Shown piece by piece: positions 682 to 11,924 of a stretch of DNA of 11,924 bases. Under the pieces are notes generated by a model. It did no database searches and was not told the origin of the DNA. It saw only the letters and a program-made list of their open reading frames with translations. How positions within the stretch are numbered: position 1 is the stretch's first letter; every line of letters starts with the position of its first letter. This stretch comes from Anaerolineae bacterium (GTDB lineage: Bacteria; Chloroflexota; Anaerolineae; 4572-78; J111). A program made the translations under genes and the position numbers. Where the stretch lies: positions 1 to 11,924 of the forward strand of contig JAHDWA010000148.1 in the NCBI GenBank assembly GCA_023382535.1. Reading direction: 5' to 3'.

Positions 682-3552
682 TCAATCCTGCACCGCGGCT
701 ACTCGAACAGCGCAAACTTTATACTCCGGAATCTTGGCCTGCGGGTCGAGGGCCGGATTGGTCAGAAAGTTAGCCGCAGACTCGGGAAAGTGGAACGTAG
801 CGAAAATCAATCCCGGCTCGACCCGGTCCGTGACCTGCGCTTTGGCCGTAATCTCCCCCCGGCGCGAGGCGACTTGCAGCAACTGCCCATCACCGATGCG
901 GGCTTTACCGGCATCCTTGGGATTGATTTCGACCAGCGCTTCGGGATAAACCGCCTCCAGCCCGCGGGCGCGGCGGGTCATTTCACCACCGTGCCAGTGA
1001 TAGATAACCCGGCCGGTCGTCAGCATTAACGGATATTCGTCGTCAGGCAGCTCGGCCGGGGGTACATGGTCCGCTCCCACAAAAAAGCCCAGGCCCCGGG
1101 TGAACCGGTCAACATGCAGAATGGGCGTTCCCGGATGTTCTTCATTGGGAACAGGCCATTGAAGCTGGTCGCCCGCTTCCAGGCGCCGGTAGGTAACGCC
1201 GGCATAGCTGGGCGTAAGCTGGTTGATCTCAACCATGATGTCGGCGGCTGTGGTGTAGTTCCAACCGGCATGCGGTGCGTCTGGGTGGGGCGACACTGCC
1301 CCCAGGAGCATCATTCGCTTGGCCAGTTCGGCCACTATCCAGGAATCCGGCCTGGCCTCTCCGGGCGATGCCACGGCCCGGCGCACCCGTTGGACGCGGC
1401 GCTCGGTATTGGTAAAGGTCCCTTCTTTTTCGGCAAAGCTGGCCGCCGGGAAGATCACATCGGCAAAATTGCCGGTTTCGGTAAAGAAGATCTCCTGGGC
1501 CACCACAAACTCTGTTTGCTGGAGCGAGTAGCGCACGTGGTTCAGGTCCGGATCGCTGGTCATCGGGTTTTCGCCGATAATATACAGGTACTTTACTTTG
1601 CCGGCTTCGGCGGCCTTCAACATTTCGGTGACGGTCAGCCCAATCTGGTTTGAAAGCGCAACGCCCCAGGCCTGCTCAAATTTTTGCTGGGCCGCCGGGT
1701 CGGTGACGCGCTGGTAACCGGAGTAGACGTTGGGCAGGCCGCCCATGTCGCAGGCCCCCTGGACGTTGTTCTGGCCGCGCAGCGGGTTGACCCCACCCCC
1801 CGGCACACCGATATTCCCCAGCAGCATTTGCAGGTTGGCGCAGGCCATCACGTTCGGCACCCCGACAATGTGCTGGGTAATGCCCATGGCGTAGAGCAGC
1901 GCTCCGGGCCTATTCTCGGCCATCAGCCGGGCCGCCTGTTCGATATCCTCAGCCGGAACGCCGGTAATCGCACTTGTTACCTCAGGCGTATACTTTTCAA
2001 TGACCGCCTTGAACTCGGCAAAGCCTTCCGTCCGCCCGGCGATAAAGACGTCATCCTGCCAGCCTTCGCGCAGAATAATATGCATCAAGCCGTTAAGTAA
2101 AGCAAGATCGGTCCCCGGTTTGTGACGCAGGTACAGGTCGGCATAATCGGCCATGTCAATCCGGCGCGGATCGGCTACAATGAGTTTGGCTCCCCGCTGC
2201 CGCTTGGCCCGTCGAATTTTCGTCCCAATCACCGGGTGCTGCTCGCTGGTGTTGCTGCCAATGATAAAGATACAGCGGCTCTGTTCGGCGATATCGCGGA
2301 TGGAGTTGGTCATCGCCCCACTGCCAAAGCTTGTCGCCAGACCGGCAACGGTCGCGCTGTGTCAGAGACGGGCGCAGTGGTCAATAGAATTTGTTCCCAA
2401 CACCTGCCGGGTAAATTTGCTAAAGAGGTAGTTTTCCTCATTGGTACACTTGGCTGAGGCCAGTACCGCAAAAGCATCGCTGCCGTGTTCCTGTTTAACT
2501 GCCGCAAACCTGCCGGCGACCAAATCGAGAGCCGTATCCCAATCGGTTTCAATAAAGGTGTCGGGATTTTCGATTTTCGATTTCGCTTGTCCGCCCTTGG
2601 CCGGATTTTCGATTTCGGATTGAGTGCGTTTTTCGGCAACAGCGGCGACCTGCCACGCGCCATTTTCGACCTGCTCGGCCACGTTTGTCAGCCACTTGGC
2701 TCGAACCAGGGGCCGGGTCAGCCGATCGGGATGGTGAACATAGTCGTAGCCATAGCGCCCTTTGACACATAAAGACATGCCATTGACCGGGGCATCGGGG
2801 GCGCTGGTGACCCGCACGACACGGCCACTGCGCACGTTCAGGTCAAAGTTGCAGCCCACACCACAGTAGGAGCAGGTGGTCCGGACTTTAGTCACCTGGC
2901 TGGCCCGCCCCAGCCCCAAGCTCATCTTATCGTACAACGCGCCGACCGGACAGTAGGCCACGCACTGGCCGCAGCTTTCGCAGCGAGCGTCGAGCAATAA
3001 TTGGTCGGCCCCGGCCACCAGCTTGCTTTTGAAGCCGCGGTGGGCAAAACTCCAGACATCCCGGTTTTGAATTTCACCGCAAGCGCGAATACAGCGGCTG
3101 CACAAAATACACTTATTTCGGTCAATGAAGACAAAAGGGTTCGGGTCCGGGTCAACCGGATAAGTATGGTGCGTTCCGTTATGTTCCGGCCAGGTCACGT
3201 TATACTCATAAACCAAATCCTGCAACTCGCAGTTGCCGTTTACCTCGCAGCGCATGCACTCGTTGGGGTGATCGGTCAACAGCATCTCCAGCACAAATTG
3301 CCGGGTTTCACGAGCCTCTTCACTCTCGCTGTCAACCACCATACCCTCAAAGACAGGAGTGGTACAGGCCGTTTGCAGCCCTCGCGCTTTCTCTACAGAG
3401 ACAACACACATGCGGCACGCACCCACGTTGGTCAGGTCGGGATGATGGCACAGGGTCGGAATATGAATCCCGGTAGCCCGCGCCGCTTCTAAAATGGTGC
3501 TTCCCTCGGTCGTCACAACTCGCTGGTTATTGATAGTCAAAGTAATAGTCAT
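682..3552 (-). CDS. fdhA: Formate dehydrogenase catalytic subunit FdhA, selenoprotein (UGA at 2362-2364 read as Sec397)
   Basis: Catalyses reversible formate/CO2 conversion at a Mo- or W-bis-pterin centre in the cytoplasm; which metal is used cannot be told. Read through one TGA it is 956 residues, normal for the NuoG-like FdhA family. Order of domains: [2Fe-2S] (Cys35/46/49/63); His-Cys [4Fe-4S] (His95, Cys99/102/108); two-cluster ferredoxin (Cys148/151/154/158 and Cys191/194/197/201); the molybdopterin-enzyme [4Fe-4S] (Cys227/230/234/262, Lys264); the pterin domain with Sec397-His398 and an RGQNNVQGACDMG motif (Arg592); and a C-terminal dinucleotide-binding domain. Both halves are in the same frame, and the 17 codons between the TGA and the second-half Met (HSATVAGL and onward) are conserved family sequence, so this is neither two genes nor a frameshift. 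The start ATG has AGGGGAG upstream overlapping the stop of the preceding gene. Residues about 287-333 form an insertion holding a heptamer repeat. Confidence 0.93.
2325..2364 (-). promoter_or_regulatory. Selenocysteine UGA codon with bacterial SECIS hairpin
   Basis: The UGA is 2362-2364 on the minus strand. Thirteen bases into the following message, GUUGCC-GGUCU-GGCGAC can form a six-pair stem (one G-U pair) with a five-base GGUCU loop, at 2333-2349. In E. coli fdhF, as I recall its sequence, the loop GGUCU also begins 19 bases after the UGA, so both spacing and loop match. AGC just after the UGA could pair with GCU at 2328-2330 as a lower stem. SelB would bind the loop and deliver Sec-tRNA. 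The extent of the lower stem is uncertain because no folding was run. Confidence 0.8.
2563..2620 (-). repeat. Heptamer-type repeat (GAAAATC/GAAATCG units) inside fdhA
   Basis: Two clusters of the A-rich units lie 17 bases apart and share the 14-base string CGAAATCGAAAATC on the coding strand, except that the first copy begins CCGAAATCG. The cluster nearer the Sec codon (2563-2585) holds an extra GAAAATC unit. They stay in frame and encode SEIENP and KSKIENP, at residues about 312-330. This resembles the short tandemly repeated heptamers spread through cyanobacterial and some Chloroflexota genomes, which usually sit between genes. Here they lie in a linker between the pterin-domain [4Fe-4S] module and the pterin core. 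Confidence 0.75.
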
Positions 3553-3564
3553 AGCATTACTCCC

Positions 3565-6500
3565 CTAGGGCATTGGCTCGCCGATACGCTGTAGCCATTC
3601 CAGATCGCACCGCAAACAGCGCTTACACTCTTCCTGGATGGTTCGGGCATCAAAGCCCATTTCCACTTCGGTAAAGTTTTGGCGGGCCAGACGTTCCTGG
3701 GGCAATAACATTTTGGCCTTGGGACGGCGGGCGTCAGCATATTGGGCCAGATCGAAAAGCTGAGGAATATCGTGTCGCTTGGGCTGATAATGGACCCCGC
3801 CCAGTTGGCCGGTGGTCAGCCAGTGATCTACGATAAGTGCAACCCGGTTGCCATGCGCTACAGACTGGACCACTGTAGCCGGACCGCTGACCGCATCCCC
3901 GGCCGCAAATACACCAGGGACAGTGTCAAGCTCGAACGCTTTTCCCACCTCGAAAGTAGCTTTGTGGTGTACACCCAGGCTTTCGTCGTCCACCCAGGTG
4001 ATCTGACCAATGGCCGGCACCAGTACCTCGCACGGCATATCGAACTCTGAGCCAGGGATGGGCACCGGGCGCCGGCGACCACTGGTGTCAAAATCACCCA
4101 GGGCCTGGCGCTGTAACCGCACCCCGGTCACTACTTCATCGCCCAGAATGGTGACAGGCGTCACCAGGAAGTGGAATTGGATACCCTCTTCCCTGGCGCC
4201 CTCAATCTCTTCTCTGAGCGCCGGCATTTCATGCTCAGTGCGGCGGTAGACCACATGCACCTCTTTGGCCCCCAGGCGTAAGGCCGAGCGGGCGGCATCC
4301 ATTGCGGTGTCGCCGGCGCCCACTATCACCACCCGTTTACCGGACAAATTCGGCAGCCGGCCCAGGGCAATATCACGCAGCAACTGGACGCCATGGTAGA
4401 CCCCCTGTTTTTTCTCACCGTGAACCCCCAGGTTCCGGCTTCTATGCGCGCCCAAAGCCAACACGATGGCCTTATAGCCGTCTGCCTGGAGGCTCTTGAT
4501 GGTAAAATCGGTGCCCAGCTCCACGTTACAGCGGATCTCTACGCCAGCCCGCCGGATGTGATCAATCTCGGCAAAGAGAGGCTCACGCGGCAAGCGATAG
4601 GCCGGGATGCCATAGGTCATCATCCCGCCGGGCTGCGGCATCCGTTCCAAGACAGTGACTACATAGCCGCGTTGGGCCAGGCGCAGCGCGGCCGTCAAGC
4701 CGCAGGGTCCGGCGCCGACGATTGCAACTTTGATGCTCTTGGGCGGCGCTAAACGGGGAGGCGTCCACGGCTCGATGTAGTACTGATCGGCCATAAACCG
4801 CTTGACCTGCCGGATAGCAATAGGATCGTCAACCTGGCCGCGCCGGCAGACGCCTTCACAAAAAGCCGGACAGACCCGGCCGCAAATCATGGCAAAGGGA
4901 TTAGCTTCGCGATGGACGGCCAGCGCTTCCGCATACCGTCCCTGGGCAACCAGAGCCAGATAAGCCGGAACATCCACTCCAGCTGGGCAGGCGCTGACAC
5001 AGGGAGCGCGCACCAACTTCTGGCAACTAGCCGCCGGGCAGCGGCCTTCGGTAATGTGCGCCCAAAATTCCTCTTCAAAATGGCGCAGCACCGATAGAAC
5101 CGGCGAAGGAGTTAATTGACCCAACGCGCACAAAGAGCCGCGCTGCATCCCTTTGGCCAGGTAGCGAATGCGGTCAATATCGGCGGGTTCTCCTTTACCG
5201 GCCGTGATACGCTCCAGAATCTCCAGCATCCTGACACTGCCGATGCGGCATGGCGGACACTTACCGCAACTCTCATCACAGGCAAACTGCAAAAAGTATT
5301 TAGTGAACTCAACCATGCAGGTCGTCTCGTCGGCGACAATCATGCCGCCTGAACCCATCACCGCCCCGGCAGCCCGCAGCGAATCAAAATCTACCGGGGT
5401 ATCCAGGTACTCCTCCGGCAAACAACCACCTAAAGGTCCACCGGTTTGGACTGCCTTGAATTTGCGCCCGTTAGGGATGCCGCCGCCAATATCGAAAATG
5501 ATGTCGCGCAGTGTGATCCCCATCGGCACTTCGATCAAACCGGTCCGATTGACCATCCCGGTCAAAGCAAAGACAGCGGTTCCAGGACTGCCTTCCGTTC
5601 CAAGCTTTTTGAACCATTCGGCTCCCAGCCGCATGATACGGGGAATAAACGCGTAGCTCTTGACATTATTCACATTGCTGGGCTGTCCCCATAAGCCCGC
5701 TACCGCCGGATAGGGCGGCCGCGGCCAGGGCTGGCCTCGCTCACCCTCGATGGAAGCCATTAAAGCTGTTTCTTCGCCACACACAAATGCCCCGGCTCCC
5801 TCTTTGATGAGGATATCAAAGCTAAACTCAGACCCTAAGATATTCTGTCCTAACAGGCCCAAAGCTCTGGCCTGGGCGAGGGCGATTTCCAGCCGCTTGA
5901 TGGCCAGGGGGTATTCCGCCCGGCAGTAGATGTAACCCATCTCAGCGCCAATCGCATAGCCGGCAATAAGCATGCCTTCGATCACGGAGTGAGGATCGCC
6001 TTCCAGCATTGAACGGTCCATAAAGGCGCCAGGGTCGCCCTCGTCGGCGTTACAAATGACGTATTTGGGCCATTTTTGCGTTTTACGGGCTAAACCCCAC
6101 TTTACGCCGGTGGAAAATCCGCCGCCGCCGCGTCCTCGCACCCCAGATTTGGTCACTTCGTCAATGACCTGATCGGGAGTCAGGGCTGTTAAAACTGTGT
6201 ACAGGGCCTGATAGCCGGCCCTGGCCCGGTAATGATCCATATTCTCCGGGTCAATGATGCCGCAATTCTCCAGCAACACCCGCTGTTGTTTGCCATAAAA
6301 ACCTATCTCGTGCCACTTCTCAATGACAGTTTCGTCGGCTGGATCATGATACAAGATTTTCTCAACCGGCTGACCACCGATGAGATGTTCTTTGACAATC
6401 TCTTTGACGTGCTGGGGGCTAACCTGATTATAAAAGGTTTCGTCGGGGTAGATGACCATAATGGGGCCTTGGGCGCAAAAACCGAAACAGCCGGTGCGGC

Positions 6501-6693
6501 GCACTTCCACCTGCTCGCCCAGACCGTGTTGGTCCAACGTCTCCTGCAAGGCCTGGCGCACCTCGGCGCTGGCCGAGGAACTGCAGCCGGTGCCCATACA
6601 GATTGCCACCCACCGATGTTGGGGATTGGTAACCGCCTTCAACGCCTCTGGCGGGATGGTCAGCAACTTTTCTGGTACGTTCACGGCAATCAT
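3565..6693 (-). CDS. NuoF-GltD/NfnB-like fusion: NAD(P)H-linked flavoprotein subunit of formate dehydrogenase
   Basis: This 1042-residue protein should exchange electrons between FdhA and pyridine nucleotides. Residues 25-110 are a thioredoxin-like [2Fe-2S] domain (Cys32/37/69/73). Residues 150-540 are NuoF, with the NADH/FMN loop GRGGGGFSTG (187-196), CGEETALMASIEG (305-317) and the N3-type [4Fe-4S] (Cys476/479/482/522). Residues 550-640 form a GltD-type double [4Fe-4S] domain (Cys557/565/569, Cys604/608/612/616). Residues 655-965 form a FAD/NAD(P) oxidoreductase with VGAGPCGL (659-666), VGAGDTAMDAA (791-801) and the NADPH-type YRRTEHEMPA motif. A CKRCLRC tail ends it. The first ATG touches its GAGAGG Shine-Dalgarno sequence, so the in-frame GTG at 6682-6684, nine bases from it, may be the true start. 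It lies four bases after the nuoE-like gene. Moorella-type NADP-dependent FDH beta subunits may be relatives. Domain assignment is firm; the electron route is inferred. Confidence 0.9.
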   Translation of the reverse strand: MIAVNVPEKLLTIPPEALKAVTNPQHRWVAICMGTGCSSSASAEVRQALQETLDQHGLGEQVEVRRTGCFGFCAQGPIMVIYPDETFYNQVSPQHVKEIVKEHLIGGQPVEKILYHDPADETVIEKWHEIGFYGKQQRVLLENCGIIDPENMDHYRARAGYQALYTVLTALTPDQVIDEVTKSGVRGRGGGGFSTGVKWGLARKTQKWPKYVICNADEGDPGAFMDRSMLEGDPHSVIEGMLIAGYAIGAEMGYIYCRAEYPLAIKRLEIALAQARALGLLGQNILGSEFSFDILIKEGAGAFVCGEETALMASIEGERGQPWPRPPYPAVAGLWGQPSNVNNVKSYAFIPRIMRLGAEWFKKLGTEGSPGTAVFALTGMVNRTGLIEVPMGITLRDIIFDIGGGIPNGRKFKAVQTGGPLGGCLPEEYLDTPVDFDSLRAAGAVMGSGGMIVADETTCMVEFTKYFLQFACDESCGKCPPCRIGSVRMLEILERITAGKGEPADIDRIRYLAKGMQRGSLCALGQLTPSPVLSVLRHFEEEFWAHITEGRCPAASCQKLVRAPCVSACPAGVDVPAYLALVAQGRYAEALAVHREANPFAMICGRVCPAFCEGVCRRGQVDDPIAIRQVKRFMADQYYIEPWTPPRLAPPKSIKVAIVGAGPCGLTAALRLAQRGYVVTVLERMPQPGGMMTYGIPAYRLPREPLFAEIDHIRRAGVEIRCNVELGTDFTIKSLQADGYKAIVLALGAHRSRNLGVHGEKKQGVYHGVQLLRDIALGRLPNLSGKRVVIVGAGDTAMDAARSALRLGAKEVHVVYRRTEHEMPALREEIEGAREEGIQFHFLVTPVTILGDEVVTGVRLQRQALGDFDTSGRRRPVPIPGSEFDMPCEVLVPAIGQITWVDDESLGVHHKATFEVGKAFELDTVPGVFAAGDAVSGPATVVQSVAHGNRVALIVDHWLTTGQLGGVHYQPKRHDIPQLFDLAQYADARRPKAKMLLPQERLARQNFTEVEMGFDARTIQEECKRCLRCDLEWLQRIGEPMP

Positions 6694-6697
6694 CCTC

Positions 6698-7201
6698 TCA
6701 GGCCGTTTCGGCCTCTGCGGCTGCGGTAATTTGTTTTTTTACTTGACGCACCAGCACTTCGGCCCGCATCCGGCCCATGACGTGATCATCCAGTACGGCT
6801 ACCGGGGCCAGGGCGCAAGAGCCTAAACAATAAATAACCTCCACGGTTAGCTGACTATCACCGCTCGTTTCTCCCGGCTGAATCTCAAATTCACTCTCGA
6901 CGGCGGTCAGCAGCCCCGGCGTGCCTTTGACGTGACAGGCAGTGCCATCGCACAGCTTCAGCACGTGCCGGCCTCTTCTTTCCAGGTAGAATTGGGCATA
7001 GAAGGTGGCAACCCCGTAGACTTTCCCGATTGAAACGCCGAGCCTGTGGGCAATCAGTTTTAATACTTCTGCCGGTAAATAGCCATAGAGAGCCTGTGCT
7101 TTTTGCAAAATCGGGATCAGGCTACCCTTTTGTCCCTGATACTTCTTGAAAACTTCGTCCATCAACGAGAAGTCAAATGCGCCGTTGTCACTTGTGCTCA
7201 T
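6698..7201 (-). CDS. nuoE: NuoE-type [2Fe-2S] subunit of NAD-linked formate dehydrogenase
   Basis: A 167-residue protein of the complex I 24 kDa (NuoE/HndA/FdsG) family. A helical N-terminal part (residues 15-75, with the family signature VYGVATFYAQF) precedes a thioredoxin-like domain binding one [2Fe-2S] through Cys84, Cys89, Cys125 and Cys129. In relatives this subunit docks on NuoF near the FMN. It is first in the FDH operon and four bases ahead of the NuoF fusion, so the pair should form one diaphorase unit. The start ATG has AGGAG eight bases upstream. There is no sign of a complex I operon here (no membrane subunits), so the nuoE symbol describes the family, not a role in respiratory complex I. 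Confidence 0.9.
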   Translation of the reverse strand: MSTSDNGAFDFSLMDEVFKKYQGQKGSLIPILQKAQALYGYLPAEVLKLIAHRLGVSIGKVYGVATFYAQFYLERRGRHVLKLCDGTACHVKGTPGLLTAVESEFEIQPGETSGDSQLTVEVIYCLGSCALAPVAVLDDHVMGRMRAEVLVRQVKKQITAAAEAETA

Positions 7202-7313: not shown

Positions 7314-7976
7314 CTAGCCCAGGTTAACCTGCCCTGTAGCTAAAAACTTAATACCCGCAATCATAAATCCCACCCCAAAAAAGGCCAGAGCCGCCCCGCA
7401 AACAAGCATGATCCAGCGATAAACGGAGGGACTGATCAGCGCCCGCCCGCTGCCGGTCAGCCAGGCCAGGCCGGTCAGCCAGCCGATATCGGTCAGCCAG
7501 TGGACCACAAAGAGCAGAGCCACTCCCACCAATCCCCAGGCCATAGACTGGCGAATGTAGAGCGGCGTAATCAGCGCCCACCAGACCCACCAGTAGGGAT
7601 TGCTCAGGCTAAAAAAAATACCGGTCGGCACCAGGCCAAAACGAGCTTCTTTGGCGGCTTCGCCGGCCAGCGTCACTTGACGCCGCCAGGCGGCCACAGC
7701 CAGGCTCCAGCCCATCCAGGCCAGAAAGCCCCCGCCGACCAGGGCAATAACCCCGGCCACCAGCGGTTGGTTCAGCAGCGAATCCCGGCCCAGCCACAAA
7801 ATCAGGGCAATCACGGCCACGTACAGCCCCTCGGCCAGGCCATGCCCCAACGACAGCCACCAGCCCGACCACTTGCCCCGCCGCGAGCCTTCGGCAATCG
7901 CCACCGTCGTCAGCGGGCCGGGCGACAGCGCGCCGGAGAGGCTGATGATAAAGAAGGTTCCTAGAAGTTCGATCAT
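7314..7976 (-). CDS. LysE/RhtB family amino-acid exporter-like membrane protein
   Basis: A 220-residue integral membrane protein with about six hydrophobic segments (roughly 3-24, 41-63, 72-95, 115-140, 147-168, 186-208). The N-terminal SPGPLTTVAIAEGSRRGKWSG stretch (residues 18-38) carries the family's conserved PGP and following basic loop, and FFSLSNPYWWVWW (121-133) matches the second conserved NP segment. The family exports amino acids or similar small metabolites by proton antiport; the substrate here cannot be predicted. Its ATG directly follows the TAA of the Nudix gene with no gap, so the two are translationally coupled. A functional tie to formate metabolism is not apparent. Confidence 0.85.
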   Translation of the reverse strand: MIELLGTFFIISLSGALSPGPLTTVAIAEGSRRGKWSGWWLSLGHGLAEGLYVAVIALILWLGRDSLLNQPLVAGVIALVGGGFLAWMGWSLAVAAWRRQVTLAGEAAKEARFGLVPTGIFFSLSNPYWWVWWALITPLYIRQSMAWGLVGVALLFVVHWLTDIGWLTGLAWLTGSGRALISPSVYRWIMLVCGAALAFFGVGFMIAGIKFLATGQVNLG

Positions 7977-8465
7977 TTAGATTTCCACGTAATCCTGTTC
8001 TTCTTGCCTGAAGACAATGTGGCTCAACCCTGGCCCCATCTGGGCCAGTTTCCACTTCAAAAATTGTGGCCGGACATCAAGCGCCTGGATTGCCGCCAGG
8101 TCAAACCAGCGAAATTCCCAGGCGGGGTCCCTGGTGAACGACTCTTGCCCAATCAGTTCAGTACCCGGTTCCAGAGCCACGGCAAAGTAAAAGCCTATTT
8201 CGTGAAATCGCTCGCCGCCGAGGGTAAAGAAGTTTTCGACGACCCATCGTAGTTGGCTGTTCTGACCGGTTATGCCCAATTCCTCCTGTAATTCCCGGCT
8301 CATCGCTTCGAGGGCCGGCTCCCCCGCTTTGACCCGGCCGCCGGGCAAAAACCAGAAATCTATCTCCGAAGTCGTGGTAAGCAGGTATCTCCCCCGGTCT
8401 TCGACGAGAGCGGCGACGCGATAGTTAAAGGTATAAAGCCCAGCTTTAAAGGAAATATCCGCCAC
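7977..8465 (-). CDS. Nudix hydrolase
   Basis: A 162-residue soluble protein with a complete Nudix box: G43, E49, then REL-x-EE at 57-62 and G64-I65, matching GX5EX7REUXEEXGU. Family members hydrolyse nucleoside diphosphates linked to another group and use the box glutamates to bind Mg2+ or Mn2+. The substrate is not evident. The start codon is GTG (8463-8465), supported by GAGG eight bases upstream. It lies 48 bases after the GNAT gene and abuts the exporter gene, so the three probably form one operon. Confidence 0.88.
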   Translation of the reverse strand: MADISFKAGLYTFNYRVAALVEDRGRYLLTTTSEIDFWFLPGGRVKAGEPALEAMSRELQEELGITGQNSQLRWVVENFFTLGGERFHEIGFYFAVALEPGTELIGQESFTRDPAWEFRWFDLAAIQALDVRPQFLKWKLAQMGPGLSHIVFRQEEQDYVEI

Positions 8466-8513
8466 CAGCTTGACCTCAAGGGATATTTGAGTGGCCGCGG
8501 ATGCACATAGTAG

Positions 8514-9110
8514 TTAATCCTGTACACCTTCTCCGTCAGCCAGCCCTGCTACCCGGATGTTGAGATGCCTGACCATCGGATCAGCCAACGCCCGCTCCCG
8601 ATCGCCCTGGAGCACCCAGCGCGTCGGTCCCTGCGCTGTCGGCGTCCCCAGCAGGGTGGGCTGAAAGCCGGCCTTTAAGATCCCGCGGCGGGAAGCCCTA
8701 TTCTCTAACGTATGCCCAATCCAAAACCGCTCCGTCTCGGCGACTTCCGCGTGAAGGATCGCCTGCAGCAGCCGCGGATAAATCCCCTGTCCCCGCCATG
8801 CCGGCAGTGTTGCGAAGTCCCAAAGACTGCGATCATGGGCGCTAAGAGGCCATTCCAGCCCTTCCGCGATCCGCTCCGTTCGTGTGGCCACCCAGCCATA
8901 GGCCACAGGCATTCCTTGCAGGAAGGCGACATAGGGGCGATGGCCCGCCCGCACTCGCGCCTCGATGGCCTGGAGATATAAGTGTTGCAGCGATGCCAGC
9001 AGCGGAACATCGAGCATATGTTCAACGTGCCAGTCCGCCAGGGGGGCGAGGATAGGCAGCGTATCACCCCGCCACCAAGTGTAACGGTATCCGGTAAGAG
9101 TAGTAGACAT
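8514..9110 (-). CDS. GNAT family N-acetyltransferase
   Basis: A 198-residue protein with the acetyl-CoA pyrophosphate loop WRGQGIY (105-111) after a strand DFATLPA, and the later motif ENRASRRGILKAGF (136-149), as in GNAT enzymes. It should transfer an acetyl group from acetyl-CoA to an amine; the acceptor is unknown. The ATG start at 9108-9110 has only a weak AAAGGG upstream. A predicted promoter -10 lies so close that the message would have a leader of about six bases. It lies 44 bases from the NuoE-NuoF gene. Confidence 0.82.
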   Translation of the reverse strand: MSTTLTGYRYTWWRGDTLPILAPLADWHVEHMLDVPLLASLQHLYLQAIEARVRAGHRPYVAFLQGMPVAYGWVATRTERIAEGLEWPLSAHDRSLWDFATLPAWRGQGIYPRLLQAILHAEVAETERFWIGHTLENRASRRGILKAGFQPTLLGTPTAQGPTRWVLQGDRERALADPMVRHLNIRVAGLADGEGVQD

Positions 9111-11441: not shown

Positions 11442-11542
11442 TGTCATTCTGAACGAGCGGAGCGAGGAAGAATCCGCCGTAACGTATCCTGCAACTGACG
11501 TTTTAGGATATTTTTCACTCCCATGGGTTGCTCAAAATGACA
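11442..11542. repeat. Short inverted-repeat element (MITE/REP-like), 101 bp
   Basis: The ends are TGTCATTCTGA (11442-11452) and TCAAAATGACA (11532-11542), which are inverted copies with one mismatch in 11. The left part continues ACGAGCGGAGCGAGGAAG, resembling the CATTCTGAGCGAAGCGAAGAATC interspersed repeats seen in many Chloroflexota and other genomes. Inside are a TATCCT/AGGATA inverted pair (11485-11490 and 11505-11510) and the palindrome CCCATGGG (11520-11527). No coding frame and no clear target duplication were seen. The right end forms the final codons and stop of metF. Family membership cannot be confirmed from one copy. Confidence 0.6.
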
Positions 11543-11924
11543 CTTGTGCCGCCTCGATCACTTCGGCAGCCAGGTCATAGCGGTCAAAGGCAGGCATGAG
11601 ATAGACACCCTGCACGTGGGGGCGAAGCTGCTGGATCAACTCGCGGGTCATAGCTACACCTTCTTGCGCGCCCTTTTCCCCGGCCTGGCGCATGCGCCGG
11701 CGGACTTCGGCGGGGATATGAATGCCGGGAACTTCGTTGTGCAGAAAGTCGGCGTGGCGGGCGTTATAGAGGGGCAGCACCCCGGCCAGGAGAGGCAGGG
11801 TCAGCGGGCCATGCTCGGCTTCATAGCGTGCTATAAAGCCAAGCAGATCGGCGGGGTCATAGAGCGGCTGGGTCAGGGCAAAGTCGGCCCCGTTCTCGAT
11901 CTTCTGGCGCAGCACCTTGATCTC
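11532..11924 (-). CDS. metF: Methylenetetrahydrofolate reductase, C-terminal part (gene continues past the right edge)
   Basis: The visible 130 residues, entering in frame from the window edge, are the C-terminal half of a MetF TIM barrel. GADFALTQPLYDP, LPLLAGVLPLYNARHADFLHNEVPG (split by the barrel strand) and VYLMPAFDRYDLAAEVIE are the typical strands of the family. It reduces 5,10-methylene-THF to 5-methyl-THF with FAD. The wording of these motifs fits best the bifunctional homocysteine methyltransferase-MetF type, but the missing N-terminus leaves that open. The last residues VSF and the stop TGA (11532-11534) come from the inverted end of the repeat element. Its C-terminal length is nevertheless about normal, so function is probably kept. 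It lies 220 bases upstream of the NuoE-NuoF gene, with a promoter between. Confidence 0.88.
   Translation of the reverse strand, partial: EIKVLRQKIENGADFALTQPLYDPADLLGFIARYEAEHGPLTLPLLAGVLPLYNARHADFLHNEVPGIHIPAEVRRRMRQAGEKGAQEGVAMTRELIQQLRPHVQGVYLMPAFDRYDLAAEVIEAAQVSF

Follow-up and report, generated by a model that had tools for sequence, protein, structure and literature searches.

An in-frame UGA read as selenocysteine in an Anaerolineae formate dehydrogenase whose partner diaphorase carries a GltD-like domain

Does the TGA triplet that interrupts a formate dehydrogenase gene in an Anaerolineae genome end a protein, or is it translated as selenocysteine (Sec)? The question is raised by the window analysed here, a stretch of 11,924 nt (contig JAHDWA010000148.1, assembly GCA_023382535.1), in which fdhA occupies a single frame on the minus strand that, with its first TGA taken as sense, comes to 956 residues (Table 1). 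The front of the frame comprises 396 sense codons (3552-2365) and ends in HCARL; codon 397 is the TGA, the only interruption of the frame. Beyond it translation resumes with HSATVAGL and runs on, for 559 further sense codons in all, to the terminal TGA, where the next in-frame stop lies just three codons away. Frame, coordinates and codon are thus as the initial annotation had described them, and its proposal was one full-length selenoprotein that ordinary gene calling would break in two. Read through, the product exceeds the cut-off of the formate dehydrogenase alpha model TIGR01591 by a wide margin (821 bits versus 666) and contains the full domain set of NuoG-like Fe-S and molybdopterin Pfam domains. 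It aligns across the Sec site with the solved formate dehydrogenases 9wxb_B and 6tg9_A, both of which have Cys at this position. The fdhA linker (window 2560-2631) contains an in-frame low-complexity insert of repeated AAATCGAAAATC units (SEIENP..SKIENP); the same linker varies in length among relatives, and one of them (L002) has a different repeat (NTQYPNTQ).

Table 1. Coordinates of the features of the fdhA locus in the window.
Feature	Position	Strand	Basis
fdhA, selenoprotein formate dehydrogenase alpha subunit (almost certain), 956 residues	682..3552	minus	TGA codon 397 read as Sec; TIGR01591 821 bits; Pfam domains
Sec codon (TGA)	2362..2364	minus	TGA (46) or Cys codon (34) in 80/80 relatives (best 80 of 592); Cys in solved relatives
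Terminal TGA of fdhA, read as stop	682..684	minus	next in-frame stop 3 codons further
SECIS apical hairpin, six pairs, loop GGUCU at 2343-2339	2333..2349	minus	kept loop and stem, covariation in TGA rows
Rfam SECIS_3 (RF01989) match, whole model, below gathering score	2309..2367	minus	Rfam model search
Predicted BfuB-type NuoF diaphorase (about residues 1-562) fused to GltD-like FAD/NAD(P) domain (rest)	3565..6693	minus	7t2r_B match, B2 ligands, FAD and GxGxxA motifs
NuoE/HoxE-like 2Fe-2S subunit (BfuC-like)	6698..7201	minus	PF01257 149 bits; NCBIfam HoxE 153.6 bits, below cut-off 224

Relatives of the locus were obtained from a scan of public genome contigs, of which the best 80 of 592 were compared. 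Among these the codon aligned with codon 397 was TGA in 46, TGC in 24 and TGT in 10, with no other codon in any of the 80, which bears out the claim that the residue following HCARL is either Sec or Cys. A tree built quickly from 81 FdhA rows places the window as the partner of L001 (support 85, on a branch that is not starred) in a ten-row clade that is Sec throughout, its nine mates being L001-L006, L008, L009 and L028. The tree requires at least ten changes between Sec and Cys at this one residue, eight of them forced by starred branches, and gives no direction for them.

Downstream of the TGA the sequence GTTGCC-GGTCT-GGCGAC can form a hairpin, in which 2349-2344 pair with 2338-2333. The stem starts 13 bases past the TGA and the loop 18 nt past it; the distance of 19 bases given in the initial annotation is accurate for the first base of the loop. 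In a 301-nt search the Rfam model SECIS_3 scored 40.8 bits in this region (E 3.8e-8), short of its gathering score (63), and SECIS_2 matches weakly (18.8 bits, E 0.36); the loop position is in register with SECIS_3 and, weakly, with SECIS_2. An Rfam scan of the whole window at the gathering threshold returned no match, and the folding energy of the 48-nt hairpin stretch was no better than that of shuffled sequences (z -0.04), so that the case for a SECIS element rests on comparison and not on stability. The SECIS of E. coli FdhF was compared with the hairpin through the Rfam SECIS models, in which UGA and GGUCU have the same spacing as here. The E. coli enzyme itself differs in being shorter (715 aa in 1aa6) and in having no NuoG-like N-terminus in the alignment with 1aa6.

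Comparison was made between 47 TGA rows (the window and its 46 TGA relatives) and 34 Cys rows, again among the best 80 of 592. The GGTCT loop together with all six pairs is found in 43 of the 47 TGA rows versus one of the 34 Cys rows (Fisher p 3.8e-17, with the kinship of the rows ignored). Taken singly, the loop is present in 46 and the six pairs in 43 TGA rows, the rows that depart from a perfect stem or loop being L012, L070, L071 and L076; the corresponding numbers for the Cys rows are 6/34 and 2/34. The Gly-Leu codons that underlie the loop are GGT-CTG in 46/47 TGA rows and in 4/34 Cys rows; such near-fixation on one side and rarity on the other points to a constraint on the RNA rather than on the protein. 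The covariation score of the TGA alignment was 0.442 as compared to 0.199 in shuffles, with 98.2% paired and with compensatory changes, the rows being related and the shuffles blind to kinship. In the Cys alignment it was 0.204 as compared to 0.175, with 70.6% paired versus 68.8%, little above chance. The fdhA gene therefore has the downstream hairpin, conserved loop and paired stem of a SECIS, with positive covariation and an Rfam score below the gathering cut-off. A pair of close relatives, L071 (6242-6301) and L065 (1738-1797), has TGA in the former and TGC in the latter. In L071 the GGTCT loop is missing, and the hairpin sequence after the TGA is the one that its Cys relative L065 has as well; this is a variant SECIS, a change of very recent date, or an error.

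The machinery for Sec insertion was searched for in the genomes behind 50 of the 80 loci, L001-L050, and in 14 named control genomes. SelA was over the cut-off in 43/50 genomes (controls 1/14), SelB in 42/50 (controls 2/14), SelD in 39/50 (controls 2/14) and tRNA-Sec in 41/50, of which 40 were accepted; with 5/14 controls also passing, the tRNA-Sec cut-off is loose. The tRNA match left out of the count, in the genome of L018, passed the cut-off with 48.3 bits, a score at which what appear to be other long-arm tRNAs also fall. ARAGORN reported a tRNA-SeC with anticodon tca in 10/10 loci checked, namely the ten best-scoring. Among the 34 genomes with a Sec site, all four components were detected in 21, three in 8, two in 4, one in 1 and none in 0; the 16 genomes with a Cys site had all four in 7, three in 5, two in 2 and none in 2. 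Six of the nine clade mates of the window possess tRNA-Sec, SelA, SelB and SelD together, while the other three genomes (G004, G009 and G028) miss one or two components; genome completeness is unreported, which makes absences weak evidence. In 36 of the 39 genomes with SelD above the cut-off, the SelD gene itself contains a single in-frame TGA, a second sign that TGA means Sec in these lineages. The genomes behind L013 and L014, of unreported completeness, combine a Cys-type fdhA with tRNA-Sec, SelB, SelA and SelD all below cut-off, as if the entire Sec system had been lost.

In our view fdhA almost certainly encodes one selenoprotein formate dehydrogenase alpha subunit with UGA 397 recoded as Sec. 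The full-length protein of 956 residues proposed at the outset is upheld by a site that admits Sec or Cys only, by a hairpin that TGA relatives preserve and that is relaxed in those with Cys, and by the Sec machinery of close relatives. The hairpin with its GGUCU loop at a fixed distance from UGA 397 is a bacterial SECIS, to which SelB is expected to bind while delivering Sec-tRNA to the UGA; the terminal UGA serves as the stop. In the Mo/W-pterin site that interconverts formate and CO2, Sec397 would provide the selenium ligand. We infer the formate/CO2 activity, the metal ligation by residue 397 and the use of the Sec machinery by the host from the features described above.

An error of sequencing or assembly at a Cys codon, or an inactivating mutation that has turned such a codon into TGA in a pseudogene, would need a single base, since TGC and TGT are one step away and Cys is found in 34 of the 80 relatives (best 80 of 592). 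We nevertheless hold this to be highly improbable: an identical TGA is present in 46 of the same 80 relatives, the ten-row clade that includes the window is entirely TGA, the frame remains open for 559 codons past the triplet, the hairpin is kept, and the window's own front fragment was counted on 16 contigs. Even less credible is that UGA has been reassigned throughout the genome and encodes one of the ordinary amino acids, as it does in code 4, a reading with which the conserved in-frame TGA alone would agree. Against it, TGA ends two complete genes of the window, fdhA and the NuoE-like gene, as well as the cut MTHFR gene; no other of the nine listed genes of the window needs an internal TGA; the aligned residue in relatives is Cys and not Trp or Gly; and tRNA-Sec is present in relatives. 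A split enzyme, in which an Fe-S protein of 396 residues works together with a molybdopterin protein of 543, would fit the listing of each half as an open reading frame and the storage of the front half in databases as a protein. The cut would, however, fall inside the molybdopterin domain (277-746), the first ATG of the second reading frame (2313) would lose the metal-ligand residue and the next 16 residues, which are recognisable in relatives, and the Cys relatives read straight through; two cooperating halves are thus hardly to be expected. Reassigned code, pseudogene and split enzyme were all rejected.

The prediction that gene calling breaks the enzyme in two was confirmed in public databases. 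A search with the 396-residue front fragment, with candidates of 0.55-1.75 times that length, listed 120 among 8,000 scored; excluding the own entry, 119/119 listed homologues measured 381-418 residues and stopped exactly at HCARL. Full-length annotations could not appear within this size range. Splitting of Sec fdhA by annotation is common, in a listing that by its nature gives no share.

Upstream of fdhA lie a NuoE/HoxE-like gene and, following it, the gene of a 1042-residue protein. The best solved relatives of this protein are B subunits of bifurcating hydrogenases (7t2r_B, 724.5 bits over residues 28-562; 7q4v_B, 717.3 bits), as compared to 429.1 bits for 6vw7_B and 362.4 bits for 6tg9_B, both beta subunits of formate dehydrogenases, and its GltD-like region matches 9bov_A and 9n5u_A. 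The B2 cluster ligands given in PMC9304861, the histidine included, align to C459, T497, H546, C552 and C557. According to the accessible text of PMC9304861 non-bifurcating homologues lack the B2 histidine, as do 8 of 1558 BfuB sequences, and a Thr in place of one B2 Cys is the commoner state in BfuB. The C-terminal ferredoxin-like tail of BfuB (B3/B4 clusters) is replaced by the GltD-like domain, which follows the B2 residues with a GxGPxGL (FAD) and a GxGxxA motif and has Cys motifs of its own; C552 and C557 may belong to a GltD-type cluster instead of B2, or be shared. The GxGxxA motif has been proposed as a mark of NADP(H) in the Sporomusa-type Nfn, Stn (PMC7483475, accessible part).

Among the relatives' aligned proteins longer than 450 aa (n=56) the B2 histidine is found in 49, the exceptions being L011, L012, L026, L036, L053 and L055, with L050 masked at this place; L016 and L047 keep the histidine and miss one Cys. 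Matches to BfuB and GltD share one open reading frame upstream of fdhA in 13 of the 80 loci (best 80 of 592; L004, L029, L037, L046, L047, L050, L057, L061, L064, L067, L075, L076 and L080, with a gap before fdhA in L057), spread over several phyla; at several loci the sequence upstream is too short for a decision. The regular expression used for the nucleotide motif misses L047, L064, L067, L068, L075 and L076. L002, L007, L008 and L028, which are near the window by tree or identity, have a tail of 62-65 residues in place of the GltD domain.

Judged from its sequence, the complex of FdhA, BfuB-GltD and the NuoE-like protein is best read as a Type 1 Fdh-Bfu enzyme and probably bifurcating, and the swapped GltD domain may bring NADP(H) into it. 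With less confidence than for the steps at FdhA, a bifurcating or confurcating transfer of electrons among formate, NAD(H) and a second carrier would run through the NuoE-like and BfuB-like subunits. A formate dehydrogenase that is simply NAD-linked and does not bifurcate, with GltD as an inert or regulatory add-on, has a substantial chance of being the truth, if the lesser one: the closest solved relative of FdhA is R. capsulatus FdsABG, named non-bifurcating in the accessible part of PMC9304861, and C552 and C557 could serve a GltD-type cluster rather than B2. The diaphorase is, however, far nearer to the bifurcating B subunits by the scores above, and it has the B2 histidine. Returning to a bifurcating complex, one may go further and imagine a four-way redox hub with formate/CO2 at FdhA, NAD(H) at the FMN of BfuB and, at the GltD-type FAD domain, NADP(H) either alone or together with ferredoxin, a hub in which the exchange of domains would have switched the low-potential exit from ferredoxin to NADP(H); this is speculative and, in our estimate, rather unlikely.

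The remainder of the window contains further redox genes. A second diaphorase (11311-9155), a NuoE-NuoF fusion, measures 718 aa, has a long N-terminal stretch and lacks the B2 residues; it is not assigned to the FdhA complex. Between the two redox gene groups (7314-9110) are genes for a LysE-type transporter, a NUDIX and a GNAT protein, and the window edge cuts a methylenetetrahydrofolate reductase-like gene, of which the C-terminal part is present (11532-11924). Just downstream of fdhA, at 5-658, a HoxU/NuoG-N-like Fe-S protein with a TTG start is encoded. It was considered as a conserved neighbour and not counted as such, since its matches near -1100 in relatives fall on the N-terminus of FdhA itself.

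Sec formate dehydrogenases have already been published from three Anaerolineales single-cell genomes (PMC4959059) and from other Chloroflexi (PMC3971608, PMC5736913), and the fdhA of the window is a further member. As described in the accessible parts of these sources, the enzymes share with it the phylum-level group, the enzyme class, the active-site Sec, NAD(P)-type partners and the occurrence of Sec and Cys versions side by side; the GltD fusion is absent from these descriptions. The Rhodobacter capsulatus formate dehydrogenase (6tg9, 9wxb) has the same domain order in FdhA and aligns across the site, but has Cys for Sec and a beta subunit of the non-bifurcating kind (PMC9304861, in part). 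Type 1 Fdh-Bfu bifurcating enzymes, as far as the same partial source goes, likewise have BfuC, a BfuB in which the B2 ligands are present, and a pterin site located on the NuoG-like subunit; their BfuB ends in a short C-terminal tail, whereas that of the window continues into the GltD-like domain. Stn (8oh5, 9bov) combines NuoE, NuoF and GltD-like modules and the GxGxxA nucleotide motif, but its GltD domain is on the NuoG-like subunit, while the window has it on BfuB, with FdhA as the NuoG-like subunit; formate oxidation by Stn was tested and not seen, according to the accessible part of PMC7483475. The less ordinary part of the locus is the partner gene, a predicted BfuB with a GltD/NADPH-type domain replacing the ferredoxin-like tail, which hints that the formate enzyme may use NADP(H) as well. 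No description of a BfuB-GltD fusion next to FdhA was found in the open-licence PubMed Central literature; one may still be in print elsewhere.

With the front part stored as a protein of its own in every listed case, surveys of formate metabolism that are built on predicted proteins can miss or misread Sec FdhA. The FdhA family also offers a clean natural comparison, in which one residue has changed between Sec and Cys at least ten times with the hairpin kept or relaxed to match. If the reading of the GltD domain is true, the locus would provide a testable case of bifurcating machinery re-plumbed to NADPH by means of a domain swap.
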